A stretch of 64,000 nucleotides of DNA from Limnanthes douglasii subsp. nivea (Eukaryota; Streptophyta; Magnoliopsida; Brassicales; Limnanthaceae). The notes below the pieces were generated by a model. That model was not told the origin of the DNA and made no database searches. It worked only from the letters and a program-made list of their open reading frames with translations. The stretch spans positions 337,131,215 through 337,195,214 of the forward strand of contig JAUPFV010000002.1 of NCBI GenBank assembly GCA_036936605.1, written 5' to 3'. The position numbers and the translations under genes are program-made. Every line of letters starts with the position of its first letter. Position 1 is the first letter of the stretch. Positions 6,304 through 27,244 of this stretch are shown here, piece by piece.

Positions 6304-7627
6304 TTTTGGGATGAAAAAACTTTAATGATAAAAATGCAACAAATGCCGAACATCGGTGACCGTGACGGTTTTTAGACAATGAGATAGTGATATGTATATG
6401 TTATATATCACACGAACCGGTGCTGTGCACTATCATATCAGGGGTTGAATATCTTTTTCTTAACGTTCAATTTATGAGTGACATATCTGATTTTTGAGCC
6501 GGCCCATTTAATTTGTAAATTTCGTAAAATAAAGTGAGATAGGCCGGTGGAATTGTTTATTTTTATAATATATGTGTACAATGTGCATATGATGTTTTTC
6601 TTTTCTAAATTAGACTTTCCCTTTTACATTTAAAAAATAATTTAAAAAATTAAATGTAATGGGCGTAGTATTTTTATATTTGATGTTCTATGAACTTTTG
6701 ATTTTGATTTTGTTTATCAATAGTCTGGGCTAATTTGGTAAGTCATGATCTCAAAACATCAATAAAAGTTCATGAATCTTTGTAATTTGGTTTATTAGTT
6801 TTTTTAATTAGTTTCAAGTTTTTAAAAAAGAGTATAAATGTGTTAAAAATACTTTACATGGTTCGCACTTTTATTTATTATAATATGTTTAAAAACGAGG
6901 TTCGTATGGTATTTTTTTTCTTGACGGCTCTCATTATTTCTTTAATACCAATAGTTTTGGTTCAATTGTTTATTGAATTACACCAATTTCGACATGGATA
7001 ACCATTTTTAATCCATACCCAAAGTCAAATAACGTTTGACTTCGTTGTTATATATAATGATAATATGTTGGGTAGATTTTCAACCCATTTGTCTTTAACT
7101 CCGTCAAAGCTTTTCTTAAGATTTTCCAAAGTTGTTATTTCTCAAATCTATATCTGCCGTTTTGGTGGTACAAACGAAAAGGAAGAAGAGATATGTTTGT
7201 TGATGCTAAAATTTAGATAATAAGGAACAATAATTCGTTATGATATTGGGTCTTGTTGTTCGAAACTGGAATCTTGGTAGGCCAAACTTATAAAAATTGT
7301 GTCAATACATAAAAGGAATAGCATTTGCTTTGTATATTCTTTTAGTTATTTGAATATCAACCCATTTTGTGAAGTAGGAAACAAGGAATAATTTGCTTTA
7401 TATATTCTTTTAGTTATTTGAATATCAACCCATTTAGTGAAGTAGGAAACTCTGATGATAAGGTATTAGGCCATCTCTAATCGTAGGTCTTTCCGGAGAC
7501 CTGGTTCAGCCCCGGAGACATCTATTTATTTACAGATCTGCCACACAGCTTCTAACCGTTACTTTACTATTCGAGAGACCTTTAATATAAACAATTCAAT
7601 CCAAACAATTCCACTATCTTTTAACTA

Positions 7628-7945
7628 TTCATCTCACTCTCTTTATTTCCCACTCTCTCTCACTCTCTTAATATTTACATTATCATCCTACATTTACTAA
7701 TTCTATAATAAATAATTTAACCTATATTGTTAATTAATAATTAATATTAATATTTAACAAGATTAATTATTTTAAATTTATGTTATAAATTTATGTGTTT
7801 AATTTTTATTTACAATAAAATAATATGTATCTTTTAACTATTCATTTGACTATCTTAATTTCTCATTCTATCTCACTCTCTCAATATTTACATTATCATC
7901 CTACATTTACTAATTCTATAATAAATAATTAAACCTATATTGTTA
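7628..7945. repeat. Direct repeat of about 105 bp inside the Harbinger-type element
   Basis: The segment running from TTCATCTCACTCTC through TATTTACATTATCATCCTAC to AACCTATATTGTTA (7628-7733) recurs almost unchanged at 7842-7945, separated by about 110 bp of AT-rich DNA. Confidence 0.8.
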
Positions 7946-8262
7946 ACTATAATATACAGTAATTATATTGAAAAGACCGAGAATACAAGATTTCATTAAA
8001 ACATTACACTTAAATCAAAAGCATTGCATAACTAGAAATACATAAGCACATAACTTAAACCAAATGATAGATAAGCTAACCCTGAGTTAGCATTTCACAC
8101 TTAGTTTTACGGAGTCGGATAGTTCATTCCATACTCAAATCTTTTCTCGAACGAATATTCCTCTTCATCACTACTTCCTTCGGGAGTTGAGTACATTTCA
8201 ACGGCGCTGGCTATTGCGTCGGCTATTTCTTGCTCCATTCAATGTATCGCATGTGACACCAT

Positions 8263-8601
8263 CTATTGCGTAATTGTAGTTTGCAATCCCATGCTGAATA
8301 CATTTCGGACTTTGGTTCGGACTTCCCAATGAAGTGACTCGATATGTATAGTCATTGTTTTAAGATAAGCTAACCTATTAGCGACTTCTTCGCGTCCGCG
8401 TGGTCGGGGCATTAAACATCCTGGACACAATGCCTCCCTACCGTGGTTGAAGAACATTCTGCACAAAACCGCATCGACGAAACCAAGAATCTCCTCTTGC
8501 ATCGTACCTCTGACGAAGTCAAATGCGCTTAGGAGGCTTGCATCTTCGTGCACATTCCAGCCTGAATCACCCATTGTTATAACTAAATTTTTTAGTTTCA
8601 T
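8263..8601 (-). CDS. Small unrecognised protein inside the Harbinger-type element
   Basis: I do not recognise this 112-aa reading frame. It has no membrane segment or signal peptide. It contains DAVLCRMFFNHGREAL, a Cys-Pro-Gly-Cys pair, GREEVANRLAYLKTM and a C-terminal HWEVRTKVRNVF helix-like stretch. The first ATG (8601) or the one at 8574 (MGDSGWN) could start it. After its stop, another frame encodes an acidic tail (AVEMYSTPEGSSDEEEYSF, about 8135-8190), suggesting the original protein was longer and has frameshifted. The pattern CR-(M/I)-(F/Y)-FN-(H/Y)-G followed by R-x-R-E-E-(V/I) resembles the small gene of the PMD elements at 23557-23934 and 24360-24749. The similarity is weak and is my inference. 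Confidence 0.4.
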   Translation of the reverse strand: MKLKNLVITMGDSGWNVHEDASLLSAFDFVRGTMQEEILGFVDAVLCRMFFNHGREALCPGCLMPRPRGREEVANRLAYLKTMTIHIESLHWEVRTKVRNVFSMGLQTTITQ

Positions 8602-9920
8602 AGAGTGAAATATGGTATTTATAGACTCAAACTCGGTTGTTCAATTCTAAAATAATACGCGAGAAAGGGTGTTTTTGTTCCCGCGTAAAACGTTTTGAGG
8701 CGGGAAACCTTCACTTCATTTGTTTCTTCCCGCCGGGTGTTTTTTTCTACCTCTATGTATTTGATTTCCGCAATTTATGAATTAAGTTTTTATTATAAAT
8801 GAATTTGTAGAGACTATTTACAAATTTAAATTTAATTTCTAAATTTAAATATTTATTATAATTTAATTATTTATTATCAATAAAATATTTACATTATAAC
8901 TTAAGTTTATTATAGTATAATTAAACTTATATTTATATTATAATTTAGTTTTCAAATTAGGTTTTGAATAATAACAAATTGCATACAATATTTAAATTTA
9001 TAACTAACGTTACCGTACAATAGTTAAATTTATAAAATAATGTTAGGAAAACGTATTTAAAATCAAATTTCAAAAATTGAATATATAATTAAATAAATTA
9101 CGATCAAAAATTAAATTTTCTATTTCTTCTTCCGTTTTCATCTCTTTCTCTCTCCTCCCTCCTGTTTTTCTTTCTTCATGTGCGACTGGAACAAACTTTG
9201 CTTTTTTCCTCTTTTCACCATTTTTCTCTCTCCTCCGGTCTCGACTTCGCGCTCGCCAGAGCCCGAGGTGGAGACCGAACAGTGAACCGGTCTCCTGTTT
9301 TGGAGACTGACACCGGCGATTAGTACCCCATTTTCGGCCCTCGATCTCGACCGAGACCGAGGGTTAGAGATGGCCTTATATTCCTTCTAGAGTAATTTTA
9401 AAAGATCCACAATGGCGATTCTTTAGAAGTCAAAATACCAAATGGATTGTTATCTAAGCGAGGATGCGGATGAGGTTTTTTTACACTTTTCATAATGTTA
9501 GACCAATTGACAAGTAGTTTTTAATAGTCTTAACCAATTGTAAAGACTTCAGGTGCGTGTGAGCAGCAAACACCTTCATGTAGTTATTTTAAGATCCCAT
9601 ATGCTTAAAAAATTATGGAATTTGGAAGTAATTGTTAGAATATAGAGATTGGTATAAAACTTAAAAAATTTGATCAAGACAAAGTTCGTCGGAGATTCGA
9701 CACAAAGACGTTAAAAAAGATGGAATCTTGAGCCACATGTAACTATAATCTTGACTTTAGTGTAAATATGAGAAATTTAAGTTGAAAAATATTGGTATTC
9801 AAAACTTTGAACCAACCTTCCAAATGACGTAGCCGACAGACATTACACTTAATATCTATTTTGACAGTATGCTCTATCCAACTTAAGAATCATAACTTGA
9901 GAGTGACTCATTCTCTTATG

Positions 9921-9938
9921 AGAGGCGGTACCGCCTCT
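9921..9938. repeat. 18-bp perfect palindrome AGAGGCGGTACCGCCTCT
   Basis: This is a perfect palindrome within the copia-remnant flank of unit A. In unit B (about 18861-18878) it carries one change (GGTACC to GGCACC). It lies in a stretch of about 600 bp (9480-10120) that may be LTR or 3' untranslated DNA of the adjoining copia remnant. Confidence 0.7.
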
Positions 9939-10119
9939 AGGTTCTCATAGGTACAATTCTTGTAGTGTTTTTCTTACTTTTGGAAACACTTATCCCACAT
10001 ACACTAAATTGTAATAAAAGTTCTGTTGAACTTATCCCTTCACGGTAGTGACCAACATATCTCACACTAATCACGAATAAAAAAATCTAATTTATTTATA
10101 TATTGAACATTTTGCAAAT

Positions 10120-11370
10120 AACTTATTGTTACTATAAGCTTCATATTGTACTAGCATATTCTAACTTAGCCAATGCTATTCCTTTACTTTTCCCACGCTT
10201 TAAACTAGGATTTAATGATGTTTGTATTTCTTTGAATTTTAGATGTTTGAACTTATCAAGTACCTTCTTAATGTCATAAGATTGACTTAGGACAAAAGCC
10301 CACTATTTTTTTATATCTTAATTCCTACAATAATGTTTATTTCATTAAGATTCTTCATATTAAAAGTGGACGATATAAGCCTATTCTTTTCATTAAACTC
10401 TTTTATTTTATTAGTTAATATAAGAAAATCACCAACATATAGACATCCAATAGCTATTACATCACCATAACCTTTAGTATATAAACATTTGTCTGCCATA
10501 TTATGTCTAAACCTATCAGATTCAATAACATGATAAAACTTTTCATGTCACTTATTAGGCACTTATGTAAGGCCATATAATGACTTAACAAGCATGCATA
10601 CCTTATAATCATTATTGTAAGTACAAAAAATTCAGACTGCTCCATATGAACCTCCTCATCGGGACCTCAATTTAGGAACACCGTTTTGACATCCGTTTAG
10701 TGAATTTTTAAATTGTATTCCGATGTATATGTGTCAAAATAATATATCCCCTCTTTTGGTCGAAAATATTTTGCTACCAACATCCGTGTGGAATTTCTTA
10801 CTAAATACCCATTTTCAACCAATTGGTCTTGAACCCGAAGGTAGATCCACCAACTCCTAAATTTGATTTGATACCATTGAATCCATTTAATTATTTATGA
10901 TATCTTTCCAAAATCTAGAATCTGAGGATGTTATTTCTTCCTTAAATGATTTAAGGTCATCTTCTAAAGAAAAAAATCGATATCACCCTCGTGATTTTTT
11001 CACAACTTCCTTATACTACGTACAAAAAAATCTTTTGAGAGTTTATCCCATCAGATCCTAAATTTTTAATTCTCTTTTAAGTTTGACTTCTAAGAGGTTC
11101 TCAGGATTATTCATCAATCCAATATGATTTTCTCAAAGTCAGTTTCTCGTTTTATAGCGCTTTGTATCATATTATCATCATATAATTTGTATTCAAAGAA
11201 CTTTGTTTCTCTTGATTCAAACAACACATTAAATGAAAAATCTAATAATCTATAAGCTTTGCTATTGGCTACATAACCAATGAACACACACCTTATAGTT
11301 TTAAGACCTAATTTTACTCTTTTTAGACCCGTGTTTTTGCAAAAAAAACTAAACAACCCGAGTTTAAAGG
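10120..11370 (-). pseudogene. Ty1/copia pol remnant, unit A (integrase end to RNase H start)
   Basis: Read right to left, 11114-11356 encodes the integrase C-terminal signature (KRVKLGLKT, CVFIGYVANSKAYR, ESRETKFFE). Then 10311-10560 encodes the reverse transcriptase region around the catalytic loop, where YVDD has become LYVGDFLI. Finally 10135-10300 encodes LSQSYDIKKVLDKF and LAKLEYAST, the stretch leading into RNase H. A large part of the RT between these blocks is frame-broken. The catalytic Asp-to-Gly change is shared with unit B, so the element was dead before the tandem duplication. Confidence 0.8.
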
Positions 11371-11565
11371 TGTCTATGTTTGATTTTATTTATTTTCATA
11401 ACTGGTTTCCTTAAGAGGAATATGATTACAAATATGACATAAAATTAAAACAGTTTCACCATATAAATTGATATATAATTTTGAATTGACTAGCATGACA
11501 TTGATAATCTCAATCAAAGTTTAAGAGTTTAAACTATGAACGACTTAATTCAATAAAATTTATTT

Positions 11566-12632
11566 TGGGCAAGGCTATTTTGAGACCCTTTTTGGCTATA
11601 ATGAGATCCTTTTATAATGAGACATCCTTTGGCTATAATGAGACCCCCAAAATGACTAATTTACCCTTGATATAAAAGCTATATATCAGCCCAAACTTCT
11701 CTTTTCTCCCTTCTCCACACAAAAAACTCTCAAAATCGGCAAAAACAAAACTCAACATTTCTCAAATCTGAACTCACAAATACCTTAAGGTACGAATCCT
11801 ATACTTATTGATGTAATTTTTATGCATTTTAGTTAGGTATTTTTAGTGATATTTAGAGTTATAAGTTTTTCCAAAAACGTCGAATGTTCATCTAAATATT
11901 GTTGTTTTTTTGGAAAGTAAGTTGTAGATAACTGTTATTCTAGTGATTGTCGATATTTTGGTATGTTTTTTTGTTGATTTTGGGTGAGTTTTTAGGGATT
12001 AGGGTTCTTAATTTTTGAATTTGCGGGGAAAAGCTTTGAGGGAGAGTTAAACATGCTTCTGCCGTTATTAGAGGAATTAAATAATCATGAAATTTGGGTT
12101 TGTGGGTGCTATAGGGTTATAATATACTGTGTAAGGCACAAACATTTAAGGTAAACTGAAAAAGTCAGTTGATTTCCTATACATGGATTACCATTACGTA
12201 ATCAGTTCTACTCTACATCTACAATAATCTATATTAACTAAACCTAAATAATTCCTGCATTATATAATAATTTACTTTATCTTCTGTGTTAGGTCTTTGC
12301 TTTAATTGCCAAAATAGAACCTACTGATGTGGAATTCAGGATGGAGTTGTTGGTCTTTCCCCGTCTGAGAAAAAGTCTTGATTTTCTTCTCAGTCCTTGT
12401 GTTAATGCCAAAGATTTGACTAATTCTCCCGTGACATTGTTTTTGGTGTTTTTAAAAAATTTAGTTTAGTTAGAGTGAGAAAAATTTAGGAAGAAGAAGA
12501 AAAAAAAGTTGGTTTTTGGTTAGAACTTTGGTTTTATATATGAAGGGTAAAATGGTCAATTCACATTAACAATTTTTTTTTGATTTTAGGGTCTCATTAT
12601 AGCCAAAAAGGGTCCCAATATAGACTTGTCCA
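11566..12632. mobile_element. Non-autonomous TIR element, deletion relative of the PMD element
   Basis: The left end reads TGGGCAAGGCTATTTTGAGA (11566 on) and continues with GGCTATAATGAGA iterations. The right end, reverse-complemented, reads TGGACAAGTCTATATTGGGA with the same GGCTATAATGAGA block, so the TIRs are about 40 bp. The first 430 bp or so (to about 12010) match the 5' leader of both PMD elements (13834-14270 and 20637-21060). The rest is unrelated to the PMD gene. Length is 1067 bp. Flanks AATTTATTT and TTTTTTTTT match at 6 of 9 positions, too weak to prove a 9-bp TSD. Confidence 0.75.
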
Positions 12633-12654
12633 TTTTTTTTTAACTTTCAATCTC

Positions 12655-13209
12655 ATAACAACACTTGCACTAGTAAATAATATCAAAATACAACAATAAT
12701 TTTAGTATTTTTAATCAACCCATAAAAATAATCAAAATCTAGTAATAAAATTATAATAACCTTATACTACATTTAAATTATAATATACCCACTATATAAT
12801 AATTTGATTATCAAACAATAACAACGCTTGTACTAGGAAATAATATCAAAATACAATAACAATTTTAGTATTTAAAATCAAACCTTAATAATAATAAAAC
12901 TATAATAACTTTATACTACATTTAAATTAGAATATACAAACTATATAACAATTTGATTCTCAAGTAATAACAACACTTGTACTAGTAACTTATATCAAAA
13001 TAATTTTAGTATTTAAAATCAAACTATAATAATAACCAAAGTCTAATAACAAAATTGTAATAACCTTATACTACATTTAAATTATAATTTTCAAACTATA
13101 CCGTAATTTGATTATCAAACAATAAAAATACTTATACTAGTAAATAATATCAAAATACATTAACAATTATAGTATTTATTGTCAAACCATAATAATAATA
13201 ATAATAATA

Positions 13210-13245
<36 letters not shown>

Positions 13246-13300
13246 GTCTAATAATAAAATTAAAATAACCTTATACTACTTTTAAATTATAATATATAAT
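12655..13300. repeat. Minisatellite, four copies of an AT-rich unit of about 160 bp
   Basis: Copies begin near 12659, 12821, 12969 and 13128, each with CTTGTACTAGTAAATAATAT-like sequence, then CAAAATACA, TTTTAGTATTT, AATCAAACC, ACCTTATACTACATTTAAAT. Units vary between about 148 and 163 bp. Unit B of the tandem duplication retains only the tail of the last copy, joined to a CAA microsatellite. Confidence 0.8.
13190..13243. repeat. AAT trinucleotide microsatellite
   Basis: About 17 AAT units with one interruption, expanded inside the last copy of the minisatellite. Confidence 0.95.
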
Positions 13301-13379
13301 TTATATAATTTTTTTAAATAGTGTTGTTTATTATAAATATAATACAAAATTGATTGGTGTGACTGTTTTTATTTTAATC

Positions 13380-13500
13380 TTAGCGTGACGTTAGCATGTA
13401 CGTGACATGCGTTTGTATGAAAAACGTGTACGTGGCGTTAGTCTCTGCGTGGCGTTAGTTTACGTGACAAACGTGCACACGACATTACCGTGTCCATGAC
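13380..13500. repeat. Short GTGACGTTAGC-type tandem repeats (unit A)
   Basis: Degenerate 15-17 bp units built on CGTGACGTTAG and CGTGTACGTG. The homologous array in unit B (20105-20260) has more regular copies of GTGTGCGTGACGTTAGC. CpG content here is locally high against an AT-rich background. Confidence 0.7.
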
Positions 13501-14314
13501 GCAACGACTGATCCACCTGAGGGCGAGGGGGGTTGCCGCCACTGCTTAAATCTGGCCGATGATTTATGAATACTTGTTCGATGGTGAAATAGAGAAAGAG
13601 GTAAATTTTGTTTTTCCTCTTACTCTTTTTTGAAACCCTTCGACTTAACAACAGTTACCTATTGAAATAGAGAAAGAGGGAAACTATTTTTTATTCTCTG
13701 TCTTAATTTTAGATAAAAGAAAGAGAAGAGTAGTCGCCATTTACAAAGAGAGATATGTAGTGTGCCTTAGAAATCAAAGGTCATTGGATTTTTATTATGG
13801 GCTTCAATAAAGATGCTTTACCTATATATATATTGGGCAAAGCTATTTTGAGACCTCTTTTGACTATAATGACACTCTTTTATAATGAGACATCTTTTGG
13901 CTATAATGAAACCTTAAGAATGGTCAAAATATCTTTGATATAAAAGCTCTATTTCAACCATAGCTTCATATTTTCTCTCTTCTCTAAACAAAAAGCTCTC
14001 AAATCGGCAAAAACAAAAGTCAAGATTTCTCAAATCCGAACTCACAAACACGTTAAGGTATGAATCCTATACTTGTTGATGTAATTTTTATGCAATTTAG
14101 TTTGATATTTTTAGTGATATTTAGAGTTATAGGTTCTCCCAAAAAAGTTAATTTTTTTTATCTAAATGTTGTTTTTTTAGAAAATAAGTTATAGATATGT
14201 GTTAGTCTAGTGATTGTCGACGTTTTGGTATGTTGATTGTTGAATTTGGGTTAGATTTAAGGGATTATGGTTCTTGGGAGTTTAGAGGCTAGAGCTGCTG
14301 TCTGGGCGCGATTT

Positions 14315-14475
14315 ACGAACAACCACCCTACTCGGGATTTGCCCTAAATTGGGCGTTGGTTGTTCGAAAATTTGCTAGCAAAATTACGAATAAGAAACTC
14401 ACAATTTTGGGCAAATTACGAACATCGAACTCGCAATTTGCCCAAAATTGGGAGTTGGTTGTTCACAATTTTTCC
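14315..14475. repeat. Nested inverted repeats upstream of the PMD gene (unit A)
   Basis: CGAACAACCA and TGGTTGTTCG arms, with internal TTTGCCC / GGGCAAA pairs, occur twice in tandem-like fashion. The homologue in unit B is at 21093-21252 (CGAACAACCACCC; GGGCGTTGGTTGTTCG; TTTTGGGCAAATTGCGAAC). The block is absent from the deletion derivative at 11566-12632, so it may be a small foldback insertion or an expanded palindrome. Confidence 0.65.
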
Positions 14476-14583
14476 TGTTTTATTTAATTTAGACTTTGTG
14501 GCCCGTATTTGACTTGCATATTCATCTCGCTAGTTTTTGTCTTACATTTAATCATATAACAATATGTTGTTTTTGATTTCAGC

Positions 14584-16395
14584 ATGCCTCGCAAAGCGCA
14601 AACTCTTGTTCGCCAGTCAGGATCAGGCAGTGATACAAAGGAACATGAGCTTGTTTCACGATCACGATCACGATCAGTTAGGCGTAGGCCTCGCACCGCC
14701 ACTCCTGGGCCTACTGTATCCCTTCTGCTTGGGAGTCTGGATCAGTAGTTCCAGAGAGTTAATCCCCATGTGCCGGATCTTTATCCGGACTACAAACAAC
14801 ATGAGGCATACAACGTGTTTATAGGAGACATAAGTTAAGATTTGTTTAACGTGCAGTGGATGATATTTTATATAATGTTTAACTTACTGAAATATTGTGT
14901 AGGTTCGTCGACTGTCGCGGTGGTACGTGATGTACAGTACCCATCGTGCATGGGATCTTACCGGGCAGGGTAGGGTGAGACAACAGTTTATGATGTCTAG
15001 CTTCGCTCCCCTCGTCGGTGTCTTGGAGCGTTGGAGTAGCAACGTGCACCTAACAGATGTGTTTATCGAGATGTGTCCTTCAGAGACCAACATCTTCCAC
15101 TTCTTGTTCGGTGAAATGATCATGACGTTAGACGAATTCCACGCTGTCACTGGTCTTCCGGTCACAAGTGATGATTTCGTTATTCAGTTTTTTCCTAGTA
15201 ATGGATAACGTTTAGCATGGTATTCCAGTTCACAAGGTATACTAGTGAATGCTCTTAGGACAAAATTAGAGAACAACAATGGGGGGTAGTTCTAGATCTG
15301 TGTGGTGACAGTTTTTACGTGAGCAGTACATCCAGCCCTATATGATGGATGACACTTTGTTTGATGCTATGGTAGAATATGTCACTGGGGGTTATTTGCT
15401 CCATATGTTAGGCTGTTATATTCTGTCGAACAAGACGGGGAACAATATATCATTAGATTACTTGTAGTTCGTAGAGCGGTGTAGGACATCTGTTAGATAT
15501 AACTGGGGCCAACATTTATTAGTTCATATGTATCACCATCTAGGGACTTCGTCCATACATAACACGTTAGGGATATCTGGTTTTGTTACCATGTTAGAGA
15601 CGTAGATATACAATCACTCCCCTCCCATTCTTGACTACGATTAACACTCTCTACGAGCCTTGTATGCCTACTATGTGCAGATACGTACCTCCACTTTATC
15701 GCGCGGATGATGAGACTCGTATCAACATCTGCCATTTACTGTCTTCATTAAGGGAGCAAAATGTAAGTTACGAGGATTTTTTTTTTTGTTTATTAGTCAT
15801 TCTTTTATTATTACTTATCGTTGATGCAATCATTTTTTTTAATTATGGTGTACGTCTGGTTCATGTTTTACCGGGATAACGAGCATTTCTCTTTCTGCGC
15901 TGTGGCTTGGATAAACCATACGTTGAAGGGGTTTGACATAGTTGAGGTGTATTATCCATTGCGGGTCGCTCGTCAGTTTGGGAATATTCAAGATATACCA
16001 CCGAGGCCGCGACCTATTTTACCAGCAGACAAGAGGATGTGTGTCAACATGCGCTATTTGTGGGATGAGGCTACATGGAGCTCATGACAGTCGCACGTCG
16101 TTGATCCGAGGATTATGGTGATACATATGTTATAAGCGGTCCTAGTACGTCCTCTTTGTATGGTGTATGGATCCAGAACCACCTATGGTACACCCTGATT
16201 GATCCTACGTGCGAGTCATCCAGTGCACATATTCTAGATACCCCGAGAGTGATCACTTTGGAGGTACGGTTGTTTGACTTGGCTGATCATGTGATTGATG
16301 GATATTCTAGAGCAGACGAGATGACTATGGAGGAAATGCATCAAAAGATGCATGAGTGTTCACTTCTGGCGCACCGGTACCGCGTGACTAATTGA
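14584..16395 (+). pseudogene. Plant mobile domain (PMD) protein pseudogene, unit A
   Basis: It encodes a protein of the PMD family (MAIN/MAIL1 and 'phosphatase 7 long form' relatives; mobile forms occur in plant transposons). It starts MPRKAQTLVRQSGSGSD and has an Arg/Ser-rich stretch. After an intron (about 14830-14902) the PMD core follows: VRRLSRWY, ERWSSNVHL, ETNIFHFLFGEMIMTLDEF, TGLPVT, LLHMLGCYILSNKTGN, then after a second intron (15763-15853) VEVYYPLRVARQFGNIQDI and PPRPRP. Defects: a TAG after GSLDQ (about 14745), also present in unit B; donor GT changed to AT at 14830; acceptor AG changed to AC at 15852-15853; a private TAA at about 15206; and further stops. Wild-type PMD proteins are nuclear and linked to silencing and transcription; the role in transposons is unknown. 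Confidence 0.85.
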
Positions 16396-16781
16396 ATGGA
16401 TTTGTATTGTATGACTACTTATGATTTTTACCACGTGGCTGATTGATGGATATACTATCTTATGTTTTGGTTTTGGTGGTTGTTTTAGTTTTTAGCTTTT
16501 ATGTTTTTGTTATTATGTAATTTCTTGTGATTGATGCTTTTATTCTCAATTTTATTTTTTAGTTTTCATTTACATTACTAATTCTAAATTATAAAATAAA
16601 ATAACAATCAAACCCACATAGTTAAAGTTTCACTTAAAAAACATGCGTACATAAAATTTCACTTAAAAACCTGCGTACATAGTAGGATGGTTAAACGCAA
16701 ACAGCTTAAGACCCAAACAATAATAGAAAATAACTTATGAAAGCATGCAACCTCAAAACAGAAGGGAATAAATCAGGATGC

Positions 16782-17159
16782 TCAATCGTCGAAGTCGTAT
16801 CCCATGTTGTCTTTATAGTTATCCCCCTCCTCCATTTCCGCAATCCTATCCTTAAGATACGCTACCATATCCCTAGTGATGTATTACACCACCATCATGT
16901 TCTAAATGGTAGCCACTTCTTGCTTAATTTTAAATGGCAAATACAACAAACACTGGAGCGATTCGGCAGAAAAGTACCAGCTTCTTATTTCGTCATGGTT
17001 GCGCACAACAAGATCTCATGTTCCTTCACGGTCGTAGTTGAAATATATCATACACAGAACACGCTCGAAAAACACATTGCTGGTATTTTTCCCCATCTCT
17101 CTTCTGGCAACCTTCACAGCCTAAAGCATATGGTAGTCTTCATCGGACGTAAACTCCAT
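16782..17159 (-). pseudogene. Convergent small gene of the PMD element, unit A (broken)
   Basis: I do not recognise this family. Read from 17159 the frame is continuous over 126 codons but interrupted by four or five stops. Recognisable segments are MEFTSDEDYHML, FFERVLCMIYFNYDREG, RNHDEIRSWYFS, CLLYLPFKIKQEVAT and a C-terminal YLKDRIAEMEEG followed by an acidic MGYDFDD end. It is convergent with the PMD pseudogene, with about 390 bp between stops. Two of the stops (codon 13 and after KQEVAT) are shared with unit B. No membrane segment, signal or zinc-binding pattern is seen. Confidence 0.6.
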
Positions 17160-19109
17160 GTGTAAAAGTATTTATGTTTTTTTTTGTTTTTTAATGTTTG
17201 ATGGTTGTCATAAGAATAAGCGGCAATAAACTCTAGATGATAAAAAGATGCATGAGATGTGATATTGTATATGTTACTAGGCAAAAAATGTTTCGCACAC
17301 GAACTGGTGCTGTGCACTATCATATCAGGGGTTGATTTTTTTTGTTAACGTTCAATTAATGAGTGGCATATCTGATTTTTGAGCCGGCCCATTTAATTTG
17401 TAAATTTCGTAAAATTAAGTGAGATAGGCCGGTGGAAATGTTTATTTTTATAATATATGTGCACAGTGTGTATATGATGTTTTTCTTTTCTAAATTGGAC
17501 TCTTTTTTTACATTTAAAAAATAATTTAAAAAGTTAAATGTAGGCGAAGTATTTTTATATTTGATGTTCTATGAACGTTTGCTTTTGTTTATCAATAGTC
17601 TTGGCTAGTTTGATAAGTCATGATTGCAAAACATCCATCAAAGTTCATGAACTTTGTAATTTGGTTTATTAGTTTTTTTTAATTAGTTTAAAGTTTTAAA
17701 AAAGAATATAAATGTGTTAAAAATACTTTACGGGGTTCACACTTCTATAATATGTTTAACAACGAGGTTCATATAATGTTTTTTTTCTTGTCGACTATCG
17801 TTATTTCTTTACATATGAATAGTTTTGGTTCCATCGTTTATCGAGTTATTGTAGTAATCTATCGTATCATATGCAAAGTTACACCAATTTCGATATGGAT
17901 AATCATTTTTAATCCATACCTAAAGTCGAATAACGTTTGACATATTTTGTTTAACTTCGTTGTTATATATAAGCATAATATGTTGGGTAGATTTTCAACC
18001 CATTTGTCTTTAACTCTATCAAGCCTTTTCTTAAGACTTTCCAAAGTTGTTATTTCTCAAATCTATGTCTACCATCCTTTGGTGGTACAAAAGAAAAAGA
18101 AGATGAGACATGTTTGTTGAGAATAAAGTTTAGATAATAAGGAGCAATGATTCGTTATGATATTGAGTCGTGTTGTTCGAAACTGGAATCCTGGTAGGCC
18201 AAACTTGTAAACATTGTGTCGATACATAAAAGGAAATAACATTTGCTTTATATATTCTTTTAGTTACTCGAATATCAACCCATTTAGTGAAGTCGGAAAT
18301 TATGATGATAAGGTATTATATTTCTTCTAGAATAATTTTAAAGGACCCATATTGGTGATTCCTTAGAAGTCAAAATACCAAATGGATTGTTATCCTAGCA
18401 ACGATGTGGATGAGGTTTTTTACACTTTTCGTAATGTTGGACCAATTGGCAAGTATCTTTTAATAGTCTTAACCAGTTGTAAAGACCTCATGTGCGTGTG
18501 AGCCACAAACACCTTCATGTAGTTATTTTAAGATCTCATATACTTCATCAATTATGGAATATTGAAGTAATTGTTAGAATATAGATATTGGTAAAAAACT
18601 TACAAAATTTGATCAAGACAAAGTTCGTCGGAGATTCGACACAAAGACGTTAAAAAAGATGGAATCTTGAGCCACGTATAACCATAATCTTGACAGTAAT
18701 GTAAATATGAGAAAGTTAAGTCGAAAAATATTGGTATTCAAAAGTTTGAACCAACCTTCCAAATGACGTAGCTGACAAACATTATACTTAATATCTATTT
18801 TGGCAGTGTGCTCTATCCAACTTAAGAATAATAACTTGAGAGTGACTCATTCTCTTATGAGAGGCGGCACCGCCTCTAGGTTCTCATAGGTACAATTCTT
18901 GTAGTGTTTTTCTTACTTTTGGAAACACTTATCCCACATACACTAAATTGTAATAAAAGTTCTGTTGAACTTATCCCTTCACGGTAGTGACCAACATATC
19001 TCACACTAATCACGAATAAAAAAATCTAATTTATTTATATATTGAACATTTTGCAAATAACTTATTGTTACTATAAGCTTCATATTGTACTAGCATATTC
19101 TAACTTAGC

Positions 19110-19985
19110 CAATGCTATTCCTTTACTTTTCCCACGCTTTAAACTAGGATTTAATGATGTTTGTATTTCTTTGAATTTTAGATGTTTGAACTTATCAAGT
19201 ACCTTCTTAATGTCATAAGATTGACTTAGGACAAAAGCCCACTATTTTTTTATATCTTAATTCCTACAATAATGTTTATTTCATTAAGATTCTTCATATT
19301 AAAAGTGGACGATATAAGCCTATTCTTTTCATTAAACTCTTTTATTTTATTAGTTAATATAAGAAAATCACCAACATATAGACATCCAATAGCTATTACA
19401 TCACCATAAACTTTGGTATATAAATATTTTTCCGCCATATTATGTCTAAACCTATCAGATATAATAACATGATAAAAAATTTCATGCCACTTATTAGATG
19501 CTTATTTAAGGCCATATAATGAGTTAACAAGCATGCATACCTTATAATCATTATTGTAAGTAAAAAAAAATTCAGACTGCTCCATATGGACCTCCTCATC
19601 GGGACCTCAATTTAGGAATACAGTTCCATTTAGTGAATTTTCAAATTGTATTCCGATGTATATGTGTCAAAATAATATATTCCCTCTTTTTGTCGACAAT
19701 CTTTTGCTACAAATCTCGCTTTGAATGCTTGAATGGTTCCATCCGTGTGGCATTTCTTACTAAATACCAATTTTCAACCAATTGGTCTTGAACCCGAAGG
19801 TAAATCCACCAACTCCTAAATTTGATTTGATACTATTGAATACATTTAATTATTTATGGCCTCTTGCCAAAATGTAGAATCTCAGGATGTTATTTTTTCC
19901 TTAGATGATTTAAGGTCGTCTTCTAAAGAAAAAAAAATCTGTATCACCCTGGTGATTTTTTCACATCTTCCTTATACTGCGTAAC
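19110..19985 (-). pseudogene. Ty1/copia pol remnant, unit B
   Basis: This is the homologue of the unit A remnant, with the same LYVGDFLI loop at about 19370-19395 and the NIIVGIKI end at about 19250. The integrase portion is absent, because unit B breaks off at CCTTATACTGCGTAA (about 19982) into a CAA microsatellite. Confidence 0.78.
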
Positions 19986-20008
19986 AACAACAACAACAAC
20001 AACAACAA
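19983..20008. repeat. CAA microsatellite at a deletion junction
   Basis: About eight CAA units lie exactly where unit B passes from the copia remnant to the end of the minisatellite. Unit A has 2.2 kb of extra sequence at this position. Confidence 0.9.
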
Positions 20009-20104
20009 TTCTAGTAATAAAATTAAAATAACCTTATACTATTTCTAAATTATAATATATAATTTATATAATATTCTTTTTGTAAAATAATGTTGTTTAT
20101 TTTA

Positions 20105-20260
20105 GTCTTAGCATGACGTTAGCATGACGTTAGCATGTGCGTGACATGCGTTTGTATGACAAACGTGTACGTGACGTTAACGTGTGCGTGACGTTAGCGT
20201 GTGCGTAACGTTAGTGTGCGCGTGACAGGTATTTACATGACACACATGCACGTGACATTA
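20105..20260. repeat. GTGACGTTAGC-type tandem repeats (unit B)
   Basis: Six or more degenerate 15-17 bp units; see the homologous array in unit A at 13380-13500. Confidence 0.75.
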
Positions 20261-20456
20261 CTGTGTCCATGACGCAACGACTGACCCACCTGAAGGCGAC
20301 GGGGGCTGCCGCCCCTGCTTAAATCTGGCAGACGATTTATGAATATTGGTTCGATGGTGAAATAGAGAAAGAGGTAAATGTTGTTTTTCCTCTTAATATT
20401 TTTTTGCAACCCTTCGACTTAGAACCAACAGTTACCAATTGAAATATAGTATTGAA

Positions 20457-20480
20457 ATATATATATATATATATATATAT
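20457..20480. repeat. AT microsatellite
   Basis: Twelve AT units, absent from the corresponding place in unit A. Confidence 0.95.
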
Positions 20481-21365
20481 GGAAAAGGTTTTCTGATTCT
20501 CTGTCTTGATTTTAGATAAAAGAAATAGAAGAGTAGTCACCATTGACAAAGAGAGATATTTCGTATGCCTTAGAAATCGAAGGCCATGGGCTTTTTATTA
20601 TGAGCTTCAATAAAGATGCTTTACCTATATATATATTGGACAAAGCTATTTTAAGACGGCTATAATGAGACCTCCTTTGGCTATAATGAGACACTAAGAA
20701 TGAACGAAATACCCTTGATATAAAAGCTCTATTTCAGTCATAACTTCATCTTTTCTCTCTTCTCTACACGAAAAGCTCTCGAAATCAGCAAAAACAAAAG
20801 TCAAGATTTCTCAAATCCGAACTCACAAACACATTAAGGTATGAATCATATACTTGTTGATGTAATTTTTATGTAATTTAGTTAGGTATTTTTAGTGATA
20901 TTTAGAGTTATAGGTTTTGCCCAAAAAGTCGAATTTTCATCTAAATGTTGTTATTTTTTTGGAAAGTAAATTATAGATATGTTTTAGTCTAGTGATTGTC
21001 GACGTTTTGGTATGTTGATTGTTGAATTTGCGTTAGATTTGAGGGATTATGGTTCTTGGGAGTTTGGAGGCTAGAGCTGCTGTCTGGGCACGATTTACGA
21101 ACAACCACCCCACTCGCGATTTGCCCAAAATCGGGCGTTGGTTGTTCGCAAATTTGCTAGAAAAATTACAAATAGCCAACTCGCAATTTTGGGCAAATTG
21201 CGAACATCGAACTCGCAATTTTCCCAAAATGGGAGTTGGTTGTTCACAATTTTCCCTGTTTTATTTAATTTAGACTTTGTGACCCCTATTTGACTTGTAC
21301 ATTCATCTAGCTAGTTTCAGTCTTACATTTAAACATATAACAATGTATTTTTTTTTAATTTCAGC

Positions 21366-23185
21366 ATGCCTCGCAAAGCGCAAACTCATATTCGCCAGTC
21401 AGGATCAAACATTGATACGAAGGAACATGAGCTTGTTTCACGGTCACGATCACGGTCAGTTAGGCGTAGGCCTCGCACCGCCACTCCTGGGCCTACTGTA
21501 TCCCTTCTGCTTGGGATTCTGGATCAGTAGTTCCGGAGAGTTAATCCCCACGTGCCGATTCTTTATCCAGACTACAAACAGCATGAGGCATACAACGTGT
21601 TTATGGGAGATGTAAGTTATGATTTGTTTAACGTGCAGTGGATGATATTTTATATAATGTTTAACTTACTGAAATATTGTGTAGGTTCGTCGACCGTCGC
21701 AGTGTTACGCGATGTATGGTACCTATCGTGCATGGGATCTTACTAGGCAGGACATGGTGAGATAACAGTTTATGATGTCTTGCTTCGCTCCCCTCGTTGG
21801 TGTCTTGGAGCGTTGGAGTACCAACGTGCACCTGGTAGATGTGTTTATCGAGAGGTGGCATTCGGAGACCAACAACTTCCACTTCTCGTTCGGTGAGATG
21901 ACCATGACATTAGACGACTTCCATGCTATCACTGGTCTTCCGGTCACAGGTGATGATTTCGTGATTCAGTCTTTTCCTAGTGATGGACAACGTTTAGCAT
22001 AGTATTCCAGTTCACTAGATATACCCGTGGATGCTTATAGGAAGAAGTTAGCGAATAACAAGGGGGGAGAGGGGATAGTTCTAGATCTGTGCGGTTATAG
22101 TTTTTACGTGAGTAGTACATCCAGCCCTATACGATGGATGGCACTTTGTCTGATGCTATGGTAAAATGTGTCACTAGGGGTTATTTGCTCCACATGTTAG
22201 GCCGTTGTATTCTGTCGAACAAGACAGGGAACAATATATCATTAAATTACTTGTACTTCGTAAAGCGGTATAGGACATCTGTTAGATATAACTGGAGCCA
22301 ACATTTATTAGTTTAGATGTATCACCATCTAGGGAAATCGTCCATACACAACGCGTTAGGGATAGCAGGTTTTGTTGTCATGTTGGAGACGTAGATATAC
22401 AATCACTCCCCTTCCCCTTCTTGACTACGGTCAACACTCTCTACGAGCCTTGTATGCCTACTATGTGAAGATACATACCTCCACCTTATCGCACGGATGA
22501 TGAGACTAGTATCAACATCCGCCATTTAGTGTCTTCATTCAAGGAGCAGAATGTAAGTTATGATGATTTTTTATTTATTTATTAGTCATTCTTTTATTAT
22601 TACTTATCGTTGATGCAATCATTTTTAAATTATTCTGTAGGTCTGGTTCATGTTTTACAAGGATATACGCGAGAATTTCCCTTTCTGCGTTGTGGCCTGG
22701 ATAGACCATACGCTGAAGGAGTTTGACATAGTTGAGGTGTATTATTTATTGCAGGTCACTCGTCAGTTTGGGCATATTCAAGATATACCACCGTGACCGC
22801 GACCTATTTTATCAGCAGACATGAGGAGGCGTGTCAACATGCGCTATTTGTGGGATGAGGCTACATGGAGCTCATGATAGTCACACGTCGTTGATTCGAG
22901 GATTCTGGTGACATATATGTTATAGGCGGTCCTAGTACGTCCTCTTTGTATGATGTATCGATCAAGAACCACCTATGGTACACCCTGATTGATCCTACGT
23001 GCGATTCATCCAATGCACATATTCCAGATACCTCGAGAGTGATTAATTTGGAGGCACGGTTGTTTGACTTGGCTGATCATGTCATTGATGGATATTCCAG
23101 AGCAGACGAGATGACTATGAAGGAGATGTGTTGAGAGATGCACGAGTGTTCGCTTCTGGCGCATCGGTACCGCATGACTGATTGA
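21366..23185 (+). pseudogene. Plant mobile domain (PMD) protein pseudogene, unit B
   Basis: Same protein and architecture as the unit A copy: MPRKAQTHIRQSGSN start, intron 1 at 21612-21684 with intact GTAAGT and TGTGTAG sites, PMD core (FVSEER-like region replaced here by ETNNFHFSFGEMTMTLDDF, ITGLPVTG), and intron 2 with the TCTGTAG acceptor at 22639-22640. The C-terminal part reads SSLYDVSIKNHLWYTLID and DLADHVIDGYSRADEMT. It still carries the stop after GILDQ shared with unit A, plus private stops (after GQRLA, at about 22001, and after MTMKEMC). Because splice sites are intact here but lost in unit A, this copy is the better guide to the gene model. Confidence 0.85.
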
Positions 23186-23556
23186 CTGGATTTGTATTGT
23201 ATGACTACTGATTTTTACCACGTGACTGATTGATGGATATACTATTCTATGTTTTGGTTTTGGTGGTTGTTTTAGTTTTTAGCTTTTATTTATTTGTTAG
23301 TTATTCTGAATTTTTTGTGATTGATGCTTTTATTCTCAATTTTAGTTTTTAGTTTTCATTTACAATAATAATTCTCTATTATAAAATAAAATAACAATCA
23401 AACCCACATAGTTAAAATTTCACTTAAAAAACATGCGTACATAAAATTTCACTTAAAAACCTGCGTACATAGTAGAATAGTTTAACGCAAACAACAATAA
23501 AAAAACGACTTATGAGAGCATGCAAACTCAAAATAGAAGAGAATAAATCAGGATTC

Positions 23557-23934
23557 TCAATCGTCGAAGTCATATCCCATGTTGTCTACATAATTACCCC
23601 CATTCTCCTTTTCTGCAATCCTATCCTCAAGATACGCTACCATATCCATAATGATGTAGTACACCACCGTCATGTTCTAGACGGTAGCCACTTCTTGTTT
23701 AATTCTAAATGACAAATACAACAAACGGTGGAGCGATTTGACAGAAAGGTACCAGCGTCTGATTTCGTCACGGTTGCGCATAGCAAGATTTCTTGTTCCT
23801 TCACGTCCGTAGTTGAAATATATCATACACATAACACGCTCAAAAAATGCATCTTTGGTATCTTCCCCCATCTTTCGGCTGTCAACCTTCACTGTCTAAA
23901 GCATATGGTAGTCTTCATCGGGCGTAAACTCAAT
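23557..23934 (-). pseudogene. Convergent small gene of the PMD element, unit B (broken)
   Basis: This is the better-preserved homologue of 16782-17159. Segments in order: DEDYHML, a stop at codon 13, KMGEDTKDAFFERVMCMIY, FNYGREGTRNLAMRNRDEI, WYLSVKSLHRLLYLSFRIK, a second stop, then NMTVVYYIIMDMVAYLEDR and an acidic DNMGYDFDD terminus. The start codon is ATT where unit A has ATG. Only two internal stops remain, both shared with unit A, so they arose before the duplication. The function is unknown. Confidence 0.65.
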
Positions 23935-24359
23935 GTGTAAAAGTATTTATGTTTATTTTTGTTTTTTAATGTTTGATGGTTGTCATGTTGCATGATATTA
24001 CATGTTTTTTTATAGGTGGTTGCCAATTTAGGTGGGACTTGATTTTCGCGGGAGCATCATTTGACGGGAATCCCATTTGGCGGAAGTTGATATTAGGTCT
24101 CGTTATAGTGAGACCCCTAAATATAGAACCTCCGCTATAATGAGACCCATAATAATGGTGGATGAGATGTTTGTACGTTTGTAAGTATTAGGTGTCACAC
24201 AATTATTGGACTACTTGGTTTCTGTTATCCTTATCTTAAAAGTGTCGTTTATTGATTGGTATAGTAGGATTACGTTATCTGAAGTCAATAAATAAAACTT
24301 CCGCCATAATCACTCGCCGTATACCCAACTTTGCGCCAACAAACATTTGGAAACTATTG

Positions 24360-24749
24360 ATGGATTTTAGTGTGGCTGAAGACTACCATTTGGTTCAACC
24401 GGTGAAGGTTGTCGTTCGAGAGATGTTTGAAGACTCAAGCGATGCTTTCTTCGAATGTTTCTTTTGTAGGATATATTTCAATTACGGCATAGCTGGGGAA
24501 ACTAGTTACATAGCGCGAAACCGTGAGGAAGTGAAAACCAGGTATTTATATGTCCAACCACTCGAACGTTTGATGTTCCTCTCGTTTAAAATTATAAAAG
24601 AATCAAAACGTGCGTGGAACATGACGGTGGACGATTTCATTACTACGAAAATGATACTATATCTGGAGGATAGCATTGCATGTAGAGATGATGATATTTC
24701 CAACGACGTTGATATTGAAGACAACACCAGTTACGATTCCGACTTCTAG
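24360..24749 (+). CDS. Intact small protein of the PMD-element companion family
   Basis: This 129-aa open frame aligns along its whole length with the broken small genes at 16782-17159 and 23557-23934. It begins MDFSVAEDYHLVQPVKVV and continues DAFFECFFCRIYFNYG, RNREEVKTRYLYVQPLERL, MFLSFKIIKES, NMTVDDFITTKMILYLED and an acidic tail ending NTSYDSDF. Where the others have stops it has sense codons. An upstream in-frame ATG at 24252 would add 36 residues, but homology starts at 24360. It is divergent with the unit B small gene and sits 225 bp beyond the proposed right end of the PMD element, so it probably belongs to a second element in the opposite orientation. No known domain is recognised. 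The acidic tail and conserved Tyr/Phe core suggest a small nuclear or interaction protein, which is only a guess. Confidence 0.6.
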   Translation: MDFSVAEDYHLVQPVKVVVREMFEDSSDAFFECFFCRIYFNYGIAGETSYIARNREEVKTRYLYVQPLERLMFLSFKIIKESKRAWNMTVDDFITTKMILYLEDSIACRDDDISNDVDIEDNTSYDSDF

Positions 24750-25285
24750 ATTCTATGTTGGTGTTGTTTTATGTTTTATTTTTGTGTGTCGTTAATTGAG
24801 TGTTATTGTGGTTGTTTTTATGGTTTCCCATGTTTTTGTTTTTATGCTTTAATGTTGGCTAAGTTGGTCGTGTTATTGACAAACATCATATGGTATTGTT
24901 GTTTTGTTTATGTTTTCTTTTGATTATATCTTATGTTATTAGAACAAAACAAAAACAAAAATAATTTTTTTAATTCAAATAGGTATGTACAACATACCAT
25001 CCAACATACTGAGAAAAACAGAAAAACAAAAAAACAAAAACATAATGCATAATGCAGTAGCAAAAATTCCTCGAGGAGGAATACAAAAGTTGAAATACAC
25101 TTTGATAGCTTCAAACACATCATATTTAATAATTGGTCAACATTCTAAGTATAACCTAGAGTTGAATCCATAACTCCAAAGACACTGCAGGGATTGAGGT
25201 CAGTTATTAGTAATTTAATTTTTTCCATGGAAGGAGTACAAGTGAGTGCCTTGTTTTCTAGGTCTGTAATAATTTTAGGAATGAG

Positions 25286-26106
25286 TTATTTTATTAAGTT
25301 TACATTAAGATTATTATCAATAGTGTTCTGTTGACAATTAATGAGAGATTTGAAATATTGAATAGCAGAATCTCCAATTAGGGATTTTTTTTCAGTCCAA
25401 GTTCCATTTATAGTGATTCCATTCATCCTATTAAGCTTCCTTATTTTTTTAACATAATTCTGGAAAGTTTGAGTATTCTTGTCACCATGATTCAGCCAGA
25501 TGGTGGCACTCTTTTGCTTCCAAGAAGTTTCTTCTTTGGCAAACAAGAATAAATGAATTGCTCTAACTTTATTAAGACATTGATTATTTTCAGAATTAGA
25601 ATGATCTTGAAGGGTTCTCTCACAAAGTTTGACATCTTCTGCTTTGGCAATATTGTAAAAAATATTGCCAAATACCCCTTTGTGAAAATTGTTGAATATG
25701 TTAATTGCTCAGTAGCTTTTGTAATAATTTTGAAGTCTCCTACTGTAATCCAAGGTAAGTTACTTTCAGAAATAAGTCTTAGGTTATCCCAAAGAGTCAA
25801 TCTTTGGGATCTGGTGTATTTGGCATAGACAAATGTGACCATCACTTCAATACTTGAAGGATAAGTCACAATTGTGTTCATACATTGCTTATTATTCATT
25901 TTAACTTGAATTTTATAATTGTTTCTCCATATTAACCAAATTTTATTATTAATCTTTGCTAAGTTGGAATCAAAACCTAGGTATTTAGTGATATTATCAA
26001 TTTTAGATCTTGATATCATTGGCTTCTGAAGAGCAATGAGATCCATTTTTTCAGATTTCACTATAGACTTAATTCTTCTAATCCAGCTAAGAAATTTAAT
26101 AGTCAT
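25286..26106 (-). pseudogene. LINE ORF2 N-terminus: APE-type endonuclease
   Basis: The endonuclease nicks target DNA for target-primed reverse transcription. Visible motifs: MDLIALQKPMI (catalytic Glu of LQE is Lys), NKIWLIWRN, MVTFVYAKY, LPWITVGDFKII (catalytic Asn of GDFN is Lys). A frameshift at about 25550 leads to ETSWKQKSATIWLNHGDKN, which normally precedes the RT. Two catalytic residues are changed, so it is inactive independent of truncation. Confidence 0.75.
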
Positions 26107-27244
26107 ATGGTTTTAGATGAAGATGATCTAAAAGATCCTTTGATAATCAAAGTTTTGTTAATGAGGTTGCACTTAAGACTTTTGGTTTTAGTTCTGATTG
26201 TTTTCTTATTAATTGTTTTATTAAGCTTTTTATCTGTAACTAATTCTTTACTTGGTGAGGCAGGGAGACTGAGAGTTTGTCTACATTCTAGAGATTCAGG
26301 TTCTTTATCTAATGTATCTTCATTAAGTGGATTGAAAAAATTACTAATATTGATGAATTGAATTGCTTCAATCACATCAGTATTGGTGATATCAGGTGGT
26401 TCTTTATCTTGATTCATAATTAATTCAGATTGAGTTTTTAATTGATGTTGAGGTGTTATATTGGTTATCTCTTTACTTTTATGAGATAAATTTAAAGAAT
26501 TATCTAAATTGGTTAAATAAATTACAGGCTTATCAGTAACTTTATCAATAATTTTTTTAATAATGTGAGTTTCTGAATTGGTAGATTTAACCTTCTTAGT
26601 CCAGATTTCTTTAGTTTTATTAGGTTGAAAATGTTGATTATTCATCAATTCATTCTGATTTAAGTTCGTAAAGAATTCCTTTTGACAATTTGAATTAGAC
26701 CAATATGTTTGCAAGTTTTACGGTATGGAGGAATATCACGATATGTGATATCCTGCCATAAATCATCTCCCTCACCAAAGCTTATCCATAGGTTTTTGGG
26801 GAGAGATTTCGATATGTCCACTAAATTCCATGCTTTGCACATATTATAACTGATTCGATTATTATTTGGAACCCATATTTATGGCAATTTGGTGATTGTT
26901 ATCCAGACAAGTGAAATTGGTGATTCAATTTTAGGATGAAATTTGGGCGACCATTTTAATATCCTATAAGAAAGATTACCTATAGTCATAATATATCTTT
27001 TCCAGAAGATTTTAACATCTTCAATTGAATCAAACTCAATGAAGAAGTGTCTATAGTCCAAGATAACTACGGTATAAGGGATAACAAAAGATTTCTCGAG
27101 CTTGAAATCTTGATCTCCTTCCCTTGGCCATCTAGGTGTGACTTCAAATACCGGATTGTTGATTACTTGAGGTCTTGCTTCTGGGTTTGATTTCTGAAGC
27201 AAAGGAAAAATATTAGGGTTTGAGATGTCTGGCTTCTCAATCAA
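26103..27244 (-). pseudogene. LINE ORF1 (DUF4283, gag-like RNA-binding protein)
   Basis: It starts MIEKPDISNPNIFPLLQKS (27244). It has the DUF4283 pattern YRHFFIEFDSIEDVKIFW, then GNLSYRILKWSPKFHPKIE (26930-27060), and a short knuckle-like segment PPYRKTCKHIG (about 26720). A long Asn/Lys/Thr-rich tail (26103-26714) follows. The frame is broken near 26880 and 26715. The product would package LINE RNA. Confidence 0.7.

Follow-up and report, generated by a model that had tools for sequence, protein, structure and literature searches.

A 64,000 nt stretch of the genome of Limnanthes douglasii subsp. nivea (contig JAUPFV010000002.1, positions 337,131,215 to 337,195,214; hereafter the window) contains three related blocks that are very probably old members of a family of multi-gene Mutator-like elements (MULEs), and this judgement takes in the mechanism proposed below, apart from its functional part. 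Two of the blocks carry a gene for a plant mobile domain (PMD) protein together with small companion genes, and the third is a short derivative bounded by terminal inverted repeats (TIRs). An earlier note, made from the sequence alone, had described a TIR transposon family that bears PMD along with a small gene convergent to it, which still stands, and had thought it unclassifiable and without a transposase, which does not: relatives elsewhere in the genome have 9-bp target site duplications (TSDs) and a MULE transposase, as does a recently spread sister family, such that at the level of the superfamily the TIRs belong to MULEs with a transposase of their own.

Ends, target site duplications and transposase of the family

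An exact-match search of the window places TGGRCAARGCTATTTT at 11566, 13834 and 20637, giving three related left ends, the first base of the TIR being the G at 11567. The motif GGCTATAATGAGA, allowing up to two mismatches, occurs 11 times in the window where 1.66 matches would be expected and none of 100 shuffles reaches 11, so the common left end and iterated motif remarked upon earlier are not due to chance. Across the genome (1.78 Gb) the left-end 16-mer has 51 exact matches, three of which are those of the window, and its reversed control has one. Of the 48 matches that lie elsewhere in the genome, 20 were retrieved as 10 kb loci and the other 28 left out, and 17 of these 20 loci are real element ends; L013, L024 and L025 have no element end at the match and are excluded from all later counts. 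The model of the end was built from 15 of the 17, L014 and L020 not being used.

A candidate right end is found in 13 of the 17 relatives, the TSD test having covered ten loci first and then L011, L016 and L022. Three have a 9/9 duplication (L010, L020 and L026) and six an 8/9 duplication (L011, L014, L015, L019, L021 and L027), the background rate for 8/9 or better being 0.0005. Two alternatives exist for each of L014 and L027, L014 being counted by the better one (8/9, the other being 3/9), and the right end of L026 is a weak match to the model (E=0.16) that was extended by three bases. It is these 9-bp duplications that identify the superfamily as MULE, where no family could previously be named.

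The transposase that had been thought absent is carried by one of these relatives as well as by the sister family. L021 is a TIR-bounded element of 6114 bp (TSD 8/9) with the same leader as the window units and a partly deleted PMD gene, and on the strand opposite PMD it has the remains of a FAR1-MULE transposase, interrupted by stops (PF10551, 2.5e-11; PF03101, 3.3e-5, the latter below its curated cut-off). Sequence from the 5' part of the transposase gene occurs in 8/17 relatives, counting L021 from which the query was taken, PMD sequence lies within the element in four (L012, L017, L020 and L021) and outside it in L014, and a small gene is present in three (L012, L017 and L022). L020 is an internal deletion with a 9/9 TSD, in which the first exon of the transposase and a portion of the first coding exon of PMD survive between the TIRs. 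No MULE domain was found by Pfam inside the window copies.

The window does hold the remains of a second FAR1-MULE-OTU-like transposase at 526-2826 on the minus strand, with 31-43% amino acid identity to that of L021. No inverted repeats bracketing it were found in 1-6400, and the element may start before the window. It was considered as the missing transposase of the PMD units and rejected, being a related element that is too distant.

A young sister family

The sister family was located through a genome search with small2, an intact companion gene of the window, among the matches listed. At least 20 matches have the same score (E=1.5e-36) and identity (53%) and are free of stops, suggesting a young amplification. 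Three of the 20 were fetched whole (L029, L030 and L031) and are elements with the TIR GGGCTAGGCTAAAATGAGACCC, with lengths of 10400, 10609 and 8572 bp and perfect 9-bp duplications AATATTTAA, GGAATTGTT and TTAATATTA. Where the three align over more than 2 kb they are 98.2-99.9% identical, with L029 and L030 at 99.9% over 4271 bp, and the TIR of L030 is a 43-bp alignment with one mismatch. For eight more of the 20 only the presumed ends were fetched; both ends were recovered in four, all of them 9/9, and in the other four one end lies outside the fetched pieces. All seven copies with both ends fetched therefore have a 9/9 TSD, and this family has spread recently.

The sister copies have long open frames, PMD and the companion small-a on one strand and the transposase on the other, and in L029 and L031 small-b and a small gene of the H type likewise have long open frames, whereas L030 has a single companion. 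In L030 the domains PF10551 (1.9e-28), PF03101 (3e-8) and PMD PF10536 (5.4e-41) all score above the cut-off, and PMD is antisense to the transposase in L021, L029, L030 and L031 alike. The sister transposase is divided among a 5' exon and two long frames, presumably joined by splicing, and its frame in L030 holds an internal repeat (417 vs 483 aa); functionality is not claimed for any single copy. The C-terminal frame of the transposase appears to resemble ovarian tumour (OTU) proteases. It has five matches in the PDB (E 0.08-0.59), of which three are to named OTU proteins, the fourth to a polymerase entry that covers the same part and the fifth unrelated, and no OTU match in Pfam. This part also contains a DGNCGFRA motif, of a kind associated with OTU proteases.

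The short derivative

Copy 1 (11567..12631, plus strand) is a short non-autonomous MULE derivative of 1065 bp. Its inverted arms at 11566-11610 and 12588-12632 (45 nt) are 89% complementary, which confirms the earlier proposal of a short derivative that has a TIR at either end. The end-to-end similarity extends beyond the core TIR in a weaker form that 1 of 1000 shuffles reaches, continuing into a TATA-bearing region on either side, in keeping with the TIRs of MULEs, which are often long and contain promoters. When the leader of each PMD unit is set against the right end of copy 1 the similarity is weaker still, being reached by 30% (unit A) and 2.6% (unit B) of 500 shuffles. The left TIR (11567..11700, plus strand) has iterated TATAATGAGACC half-sites followed by a TATA-like promoter, and the right TIR is at 12586..12631 (minus strand). 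The flanking 9-bp duplications, ATTTATTTT at 11558..11566 and ATTTTTTTT at 12632..12640, agree at 8/9 positions, an agreement that is weak on its own as the site is T-rich.

Over its whole length copy 1 shares 91.7% identity with an element of 1091 bp in L027, and it matches L021 over the left 443 bp at 88% and over its last 197 bp, the right end, at 72%. What it retains is the leader on the left and, on the right, the end as far as approximately the transposase start codon. A KTPKTM match to the start of the transposase (~12423-12461, minus strand) is weak alone (E=0.36), but is carried by this 72% match at the DNA level. Because the right end reaches approximately the transposase start, and no PMD coding sequence was found in copy 1, it looks to have been derived from a transposase-bearing element and not from the two-gene units, and looks to be of the same internal-deletion kind as L020. 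A reading frame at 12296-12481 was considered as a captured mTERF-like exon and ruled out, having no Pfam or PDB match.

The PMD units and their duplication

Unit A (13835..17211, plus strand) comprises the left TIR, leader, PMD gene and small gene, its right side being cut by the junction of a tandem duplication. Unit B (20638..24824, plus strand) comprises the left TIR, leader, PMD, small1 on the minus strand, an internal promoter and small2 on the plus strand, and its right end is missing, the extent to ~24824 being set by homology to L012 (84.5% over 4245 bp). L012 has the same order as unit B, that is PMD on the plus strand, a small gene on the minus, the motif, and a small gene on the plus. 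Unit B thus does not stop at 24135 as previously supposed, since the motif there is internal and the intact small2 follows; for the same reason the motif at 24100-24161 was dropped as a right TIR of unit B, and the idea that the small gene starting at 24360 belongs to an inverted element of its own was given up. The place where the right part of unit B would be expected is occupied by sequence that by eye is like a non-LTR retrotransposon (25289-27244, minus strand), within which the sole Pfam score is DUF4283 at 26882-27244.

Both PMD genes are broken (unit A, 14584..16395; unit B, 21366..23185, with GT..AG introns; both on the plus strand). When introns and frame breaks are bridged and X is placed at stops the unit A gene matches PF10536 with E=2e-25, which bears out its identity as a PMD gene, and single open pieces score E=3e-7 and 2e-4. 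There are several in-frame stops in both genes, those of PMD and small1 being partly common to copies A and B, and unit A is also without two splice signals. The PMD sequence gave nothing significant in a protein database search where plants are perhaps hardly covered, and no match in the PDB. The leader reads as a putative promoter (TTGATATAAAAG), 5' exon and GT..AG intron ahead of the PMD start codon, intron 1 of unit A being at 14058-14582 in the 5' leader. Short palindromic repeats are present in this leader intron (14316-14474 and 21098-21260) that resemble, also in translation, repeats in the N-terminal exon of the transposase (right part of L021), and these might be further binding sites.

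Self-comparison of the window reveals a tandem segmental duplication with a first copy at 6409..17211 and a second at 17296-23986, in pieces that are 84.8-93.6% identical; 13220-17211 matches 19982-23986 at 86%. Homology between units A and B does not stop at the TIR but continues for 615 bp upstream and further into a copia relic, and the duplication takes in copia sequence (RVT_2 at 19250-19501, 3.7e-9). It follows that A and B are a single insertion that was copied once, and whilst the earlier note was correct in recognising two sets of PMD and small genes, these are one locus in a tandem duplication and not separate insertions. Copy A of the duplication has two stretches that are absent in copy B, 7469-9375 and ~11022-13220. 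The first is flanked by a duplicated TTA, and the corresponding site in copy B is cleanly empty; the second contains copy 1 and begins with further copia sequence (11114-11389), for which reason it was probably lost from copy B. Another local segmental duplication that includes the element is seen in L027 (1-7102), where two left ends with identical flank are 4510 bp apart.

The companion genes and selection

The small genes of the window are small1 of unit A (16785..17159, minus strand), which is broken, small1 of unit B (23560..23934, minus strand), which has two in-frame stops, and small2 (24360..24749, plus strand), a second companion that is intact with 129 codons; the convergent small gene reported for both PMD units is thereby upheld. 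Pfam gives no significant family for the companions, searches of the PDB with companion profiles found nothing credible, and small2 has nothing significant in a protein database that perhaps hardly covers plants. As they have no Pfam model, the companions are probably annotated as "hypothetical protein" where they are present. A Myb/SANT fold was considered and is unsupported, PF00249 being matched by one of six companion members (small-a, E=0.076 and 0.16 only), and the one structure model having a pLDDT of 48.9, which is too poor for a fold search. The family is abundant: the genome search with small2 found at least 150 significant places (all 150 that were scored), from 9840 loose first-look candidates. 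These copies fall roughly into two classes, one diverged, in which many copies have stops, the other near-identical, intact and dispersed over the five large contigs.

There is purifying selection on the transposase and companions across the two families. The ratio of nonsynonymous to synonymous substitution rates (dN/dS) for small-a is 0.25 (0.14-0.45) against small2 of the window and 0.28 (0.14-0.49) against small1, that for H against the H gene of the window is 0.48 (0.28-0.81), and the transposase of the sister family against that of L021 gives 0.28 and 0.27. Within the window family small2 against L012, L022 and L017 gives 0.40, 0.30 and 0.33, and the window PMD against L017 gives 0.31-0.33 in exon 2, 0.46 and 0.68 in exon 3 and 0.87-0.89 in exon 1; between sister and window PMD the silent sites are saturated. 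Small1 of unit B against small2 has a dN/dS of 0.41 (bootstrap 0.23-0.68), but small1 of unit A against that of unit B has 0.81 (0.44-2.03), so that selection on the gene family preceded the local decay. To judge from these ratios the companions, and PMD at least in exon 2, are long constrained, as element genes would be, and recent decay hides the constraint between close copies.

A motif common to the ends and the internal promoters

The half-site TATARYGAGAC is found as direct repeats in the left TIR, ahead of the PMD promoter; the right TIR, ahead of the transposase, has fewer copies of it. With up to one mismatch the window has 16 half-sites, of which 12 fall within the elements, and there is one in 29 kb of flanks of 20 loci. 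The same motif recurs at internal promoters: between the divergent small genes of unit B two inverted TIR half-sites form a palindrome, GTCTCGTTATAGTGAGAC (24097..24114), that is the sole match in the window to GTCTCRYTATARYGAGAC at up to two mismatches and has none. This inverted pair is also found ahead of companions in L029, at 7141 before small-b (no mismatches) and at 4878 before small-a (one mismatch), and L012 and L017 have the palindrome with two mismatches each.

Upstream of small1 in unit B are also two E2F-like sites, TTTCGCGG and TTTGGCGG (24044..24083, plus strand), TTTSSCGS sites numbering five in the whole window. In the L029 element there are 14 E2F-like sites of the consensus form TTSSCGS, where 300 shuffles have 7.6 on average; nine of the 14 are in two clusters, before small-a and H, and a cluster of six within 100 bp is seen in 0 of 300 shuffles.

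Proposed mechanism and its alternatives

Taken together these observations are consistent with an element in which the left TIR would drive the PMD gene on one strand and the right TIR of the fuller relatives would drive a FAR1-MULE-(OTU-like) transposase on the other, with one to three paralogous small companions between them. The transposase would act on the TIRs, of which the iterated half-site TATARYGAGACC is the likely recognition site, and so yield the 9-bp duplications. Copy 1 would be an internal deletion product mobilised in trans, and units A and B one insertion that was later duplicated together with its surroundings. The motif and E2F-like patterns suggest self-regulation of the element and a tie to S phase: an element protein, be it the transposase through its FAR1 domain or the small proteins, may bind both the half-sites of the ends and the palindromes of the companion promoters, and the E2F-like sites may couple companion expression to S phase. 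PMD and the companions may aid escape from silencing or the self-regulation of the element, a functional proposal that we hold only tentatively, putting it at somewhat less than an even chance.

Several observations weigh against this reading. Four of the 13 candidate TSDs do not fit (L028 7/9, L022 5/9, L023 4/9 and L016 3/9), and a right end was not seen in 4/17 relatives nor in units A and B. Transposase domains beyond the 5' part are present in one of the 17 relatives, L021, where they have stops, and no intact transposase of the window's own TIR family was seen among the 17; the OTU-like score is weak (E 0.08-0.6 in the PDB and none in Pfam). Constraint is not evident in every comparison, given the 0.81 between the two small1 copies and the values against L012 of 0.50-1.04 for the PMD exons and 0.72 for small1 of unit B, with intervals that include 1. 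The palindrome before H is degenerate, with two mismatches in L031 and more in L029, a palindrome-like match with two mismatches lies in the flank of L011 in another element end, small-b has no E2F-like cluster, and both the palindrome and the E2F-like patterns were defined post hoc from these very sequences.

The strongest alternative, which we nonetheless consider unlikely, is that the companions are cofactors required for transposition, in the manner of mudrB, and not regulators or antagonists of silencing. They are constrained about as much as the transposase across families, and PMD lies opposite the transposase, in the position that mudrB has in maize MuDR. Set against this the companions have no significant Pfam match, the promoter motifs suggest a regulated dosage, and L030 has spread with a single companion, though perhaps in trans given the internal repeat in its transposase frame. 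A slightly less probable idea, and a speculative one, is that the companions are a new family of element-encoded DNA-binding proteins, which would recognise the TATARYGAGACC half-site, binding the palindromes of their own promoters as a dimer and the TIRs as an array, be switched on in S phase by E2F, and together with PMD lift silencing. If this were true, transposition would follow replication and the genes would form a self-regulating transposition module gated by the cell cycle.

It would seem improbable that PMD and the small genes are neutral Pack-MULE passengers with no role in the life cycle of the element. Gene capture by MULEs is described as frequent (PMC8616336 and PMC13317346), only 4/17 relatives have PMD inside and 3/17 a small gene, such that short copies move without them, and the window copies are decayed with no clear constraint between close copies. 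However, the same genes are found in two families with transposases at a dS of ~0.9 apart, the companions have an across-family dN/dS (0.25-0.48) close to the 0.27-0.28 of the transposase, an element-specific palindrome is present at companion promoters, and the frames are kept open in young copies.

The multi-gene MULE reading leaves very little room for the view of the earlier note that these are TIR elements outside the known superfamilies without their own transposase; a Pfam scan of 88 frames of at least 85 aa did find a MULE domain in the window only at 1490-2071, outside the elements, but the 9-bp TSDs, G-start TIRs and FAR1/MULE transposase of sibling copies refute that view as to superfamily. 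That the repeats are immobile products of local tandem duplication, as units A and B indeed are with respect to each other, is refuted by the 51 genome-wide end matches, of which 17 of 20 fetched are real ends, by TSDs at many sites, and by the TIRs and near-TSD that bound copy 1, and we give it next to no credence.

Comparison with known MULEs

MULEs with a PMD gene antisense to the transposase have been published before: Table 1 of PMC6446971 gives the arrangement for the plant groups MUDR, MDR, MUDRAVI2 and MULE-Solanaceae_1, the entry for the last being "unknown ORF and PMD (antisens)" with no TIR. These plant groups are similar to the elements described here in the 9-bp TSD (where given), the transposase, a PMD that is often on the opposite strand and, mostly, the TIRs; they differ in that their transposases are, by the table's description, SWIM or CCHC types without FAR1, whereas the present elements have FAR1 and OTU-like parts, as many as three companions that are paralogues, and promoter modules with the motif and E2F-like sites. 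The Jittery and Hop groups share a FAR1 DNA-binding domain together with the MULE domain, but PMD and companions are not listed for them in the same source, where "Ovarian Tumour Gene" is entered for a cnidarian MULE (PMC6446971).

According to Ikeda et al. 2017 (PMC5418596), PMD-C was captured twice by MULEs as transposase fusions, in grasses and in Amborella. These are likewise MULEs with a PMD, but there the PMD is fused and here it is a separate intron-bearing gene on the opposite strand. An anti-silencing role of the MULE PMD has been speculated upon in that paper and again in PMC8616336. VANDAL21 (PMC5735166) is also a MULE with several genes, and its non-coding parts contain repeats of a short motif, YAGTATTAY, which VANC21 binds; the elements of Limnanthes differ from it in that no VANC-like protein was recognised in them, the motif is another one and its binding is putative. 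The combination of a FAR1/OTU-like transposase, PMD and constrained companions that lack a Pfam family and have palindromes of the TIR motif in their promoters was not found in a limited search of the open literature, outside which lie Repbase and most subscription papers.

Other features of the duplicated region

The stretch 7469-9375 that is absent in copy B of the duplication is a 1.9 kb PIF/Harbinger-type insertion with a TTA duplication and the TIR GGCCATCTCTAA. It contains a broken gene (8107-8574, minus strand) that, with its promoter, is 75% identical over 697 bp to the sister MULE; apparently a gene of one transposon superfamily has been acquired by another. That the PMD element might itself be PIF/Harbinger was ruled out by its 9-bp TSD. 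Just left of the duplication is an open 320-aa frame of WD40 repeats (4503-5462, plus strand; PF00400, 1.1e-31), for which the best model is THOC3, below its cut-off, and which is probably a host gene or a retrocopy.

Implications

What had been an orphan repeat becomes a datable MULE lineage with young copies. The role that PMD and accessory genes have for a transposon becomes testable in one system, and the palindrome common to the promoters offers a concrete DNA target for binding tests.

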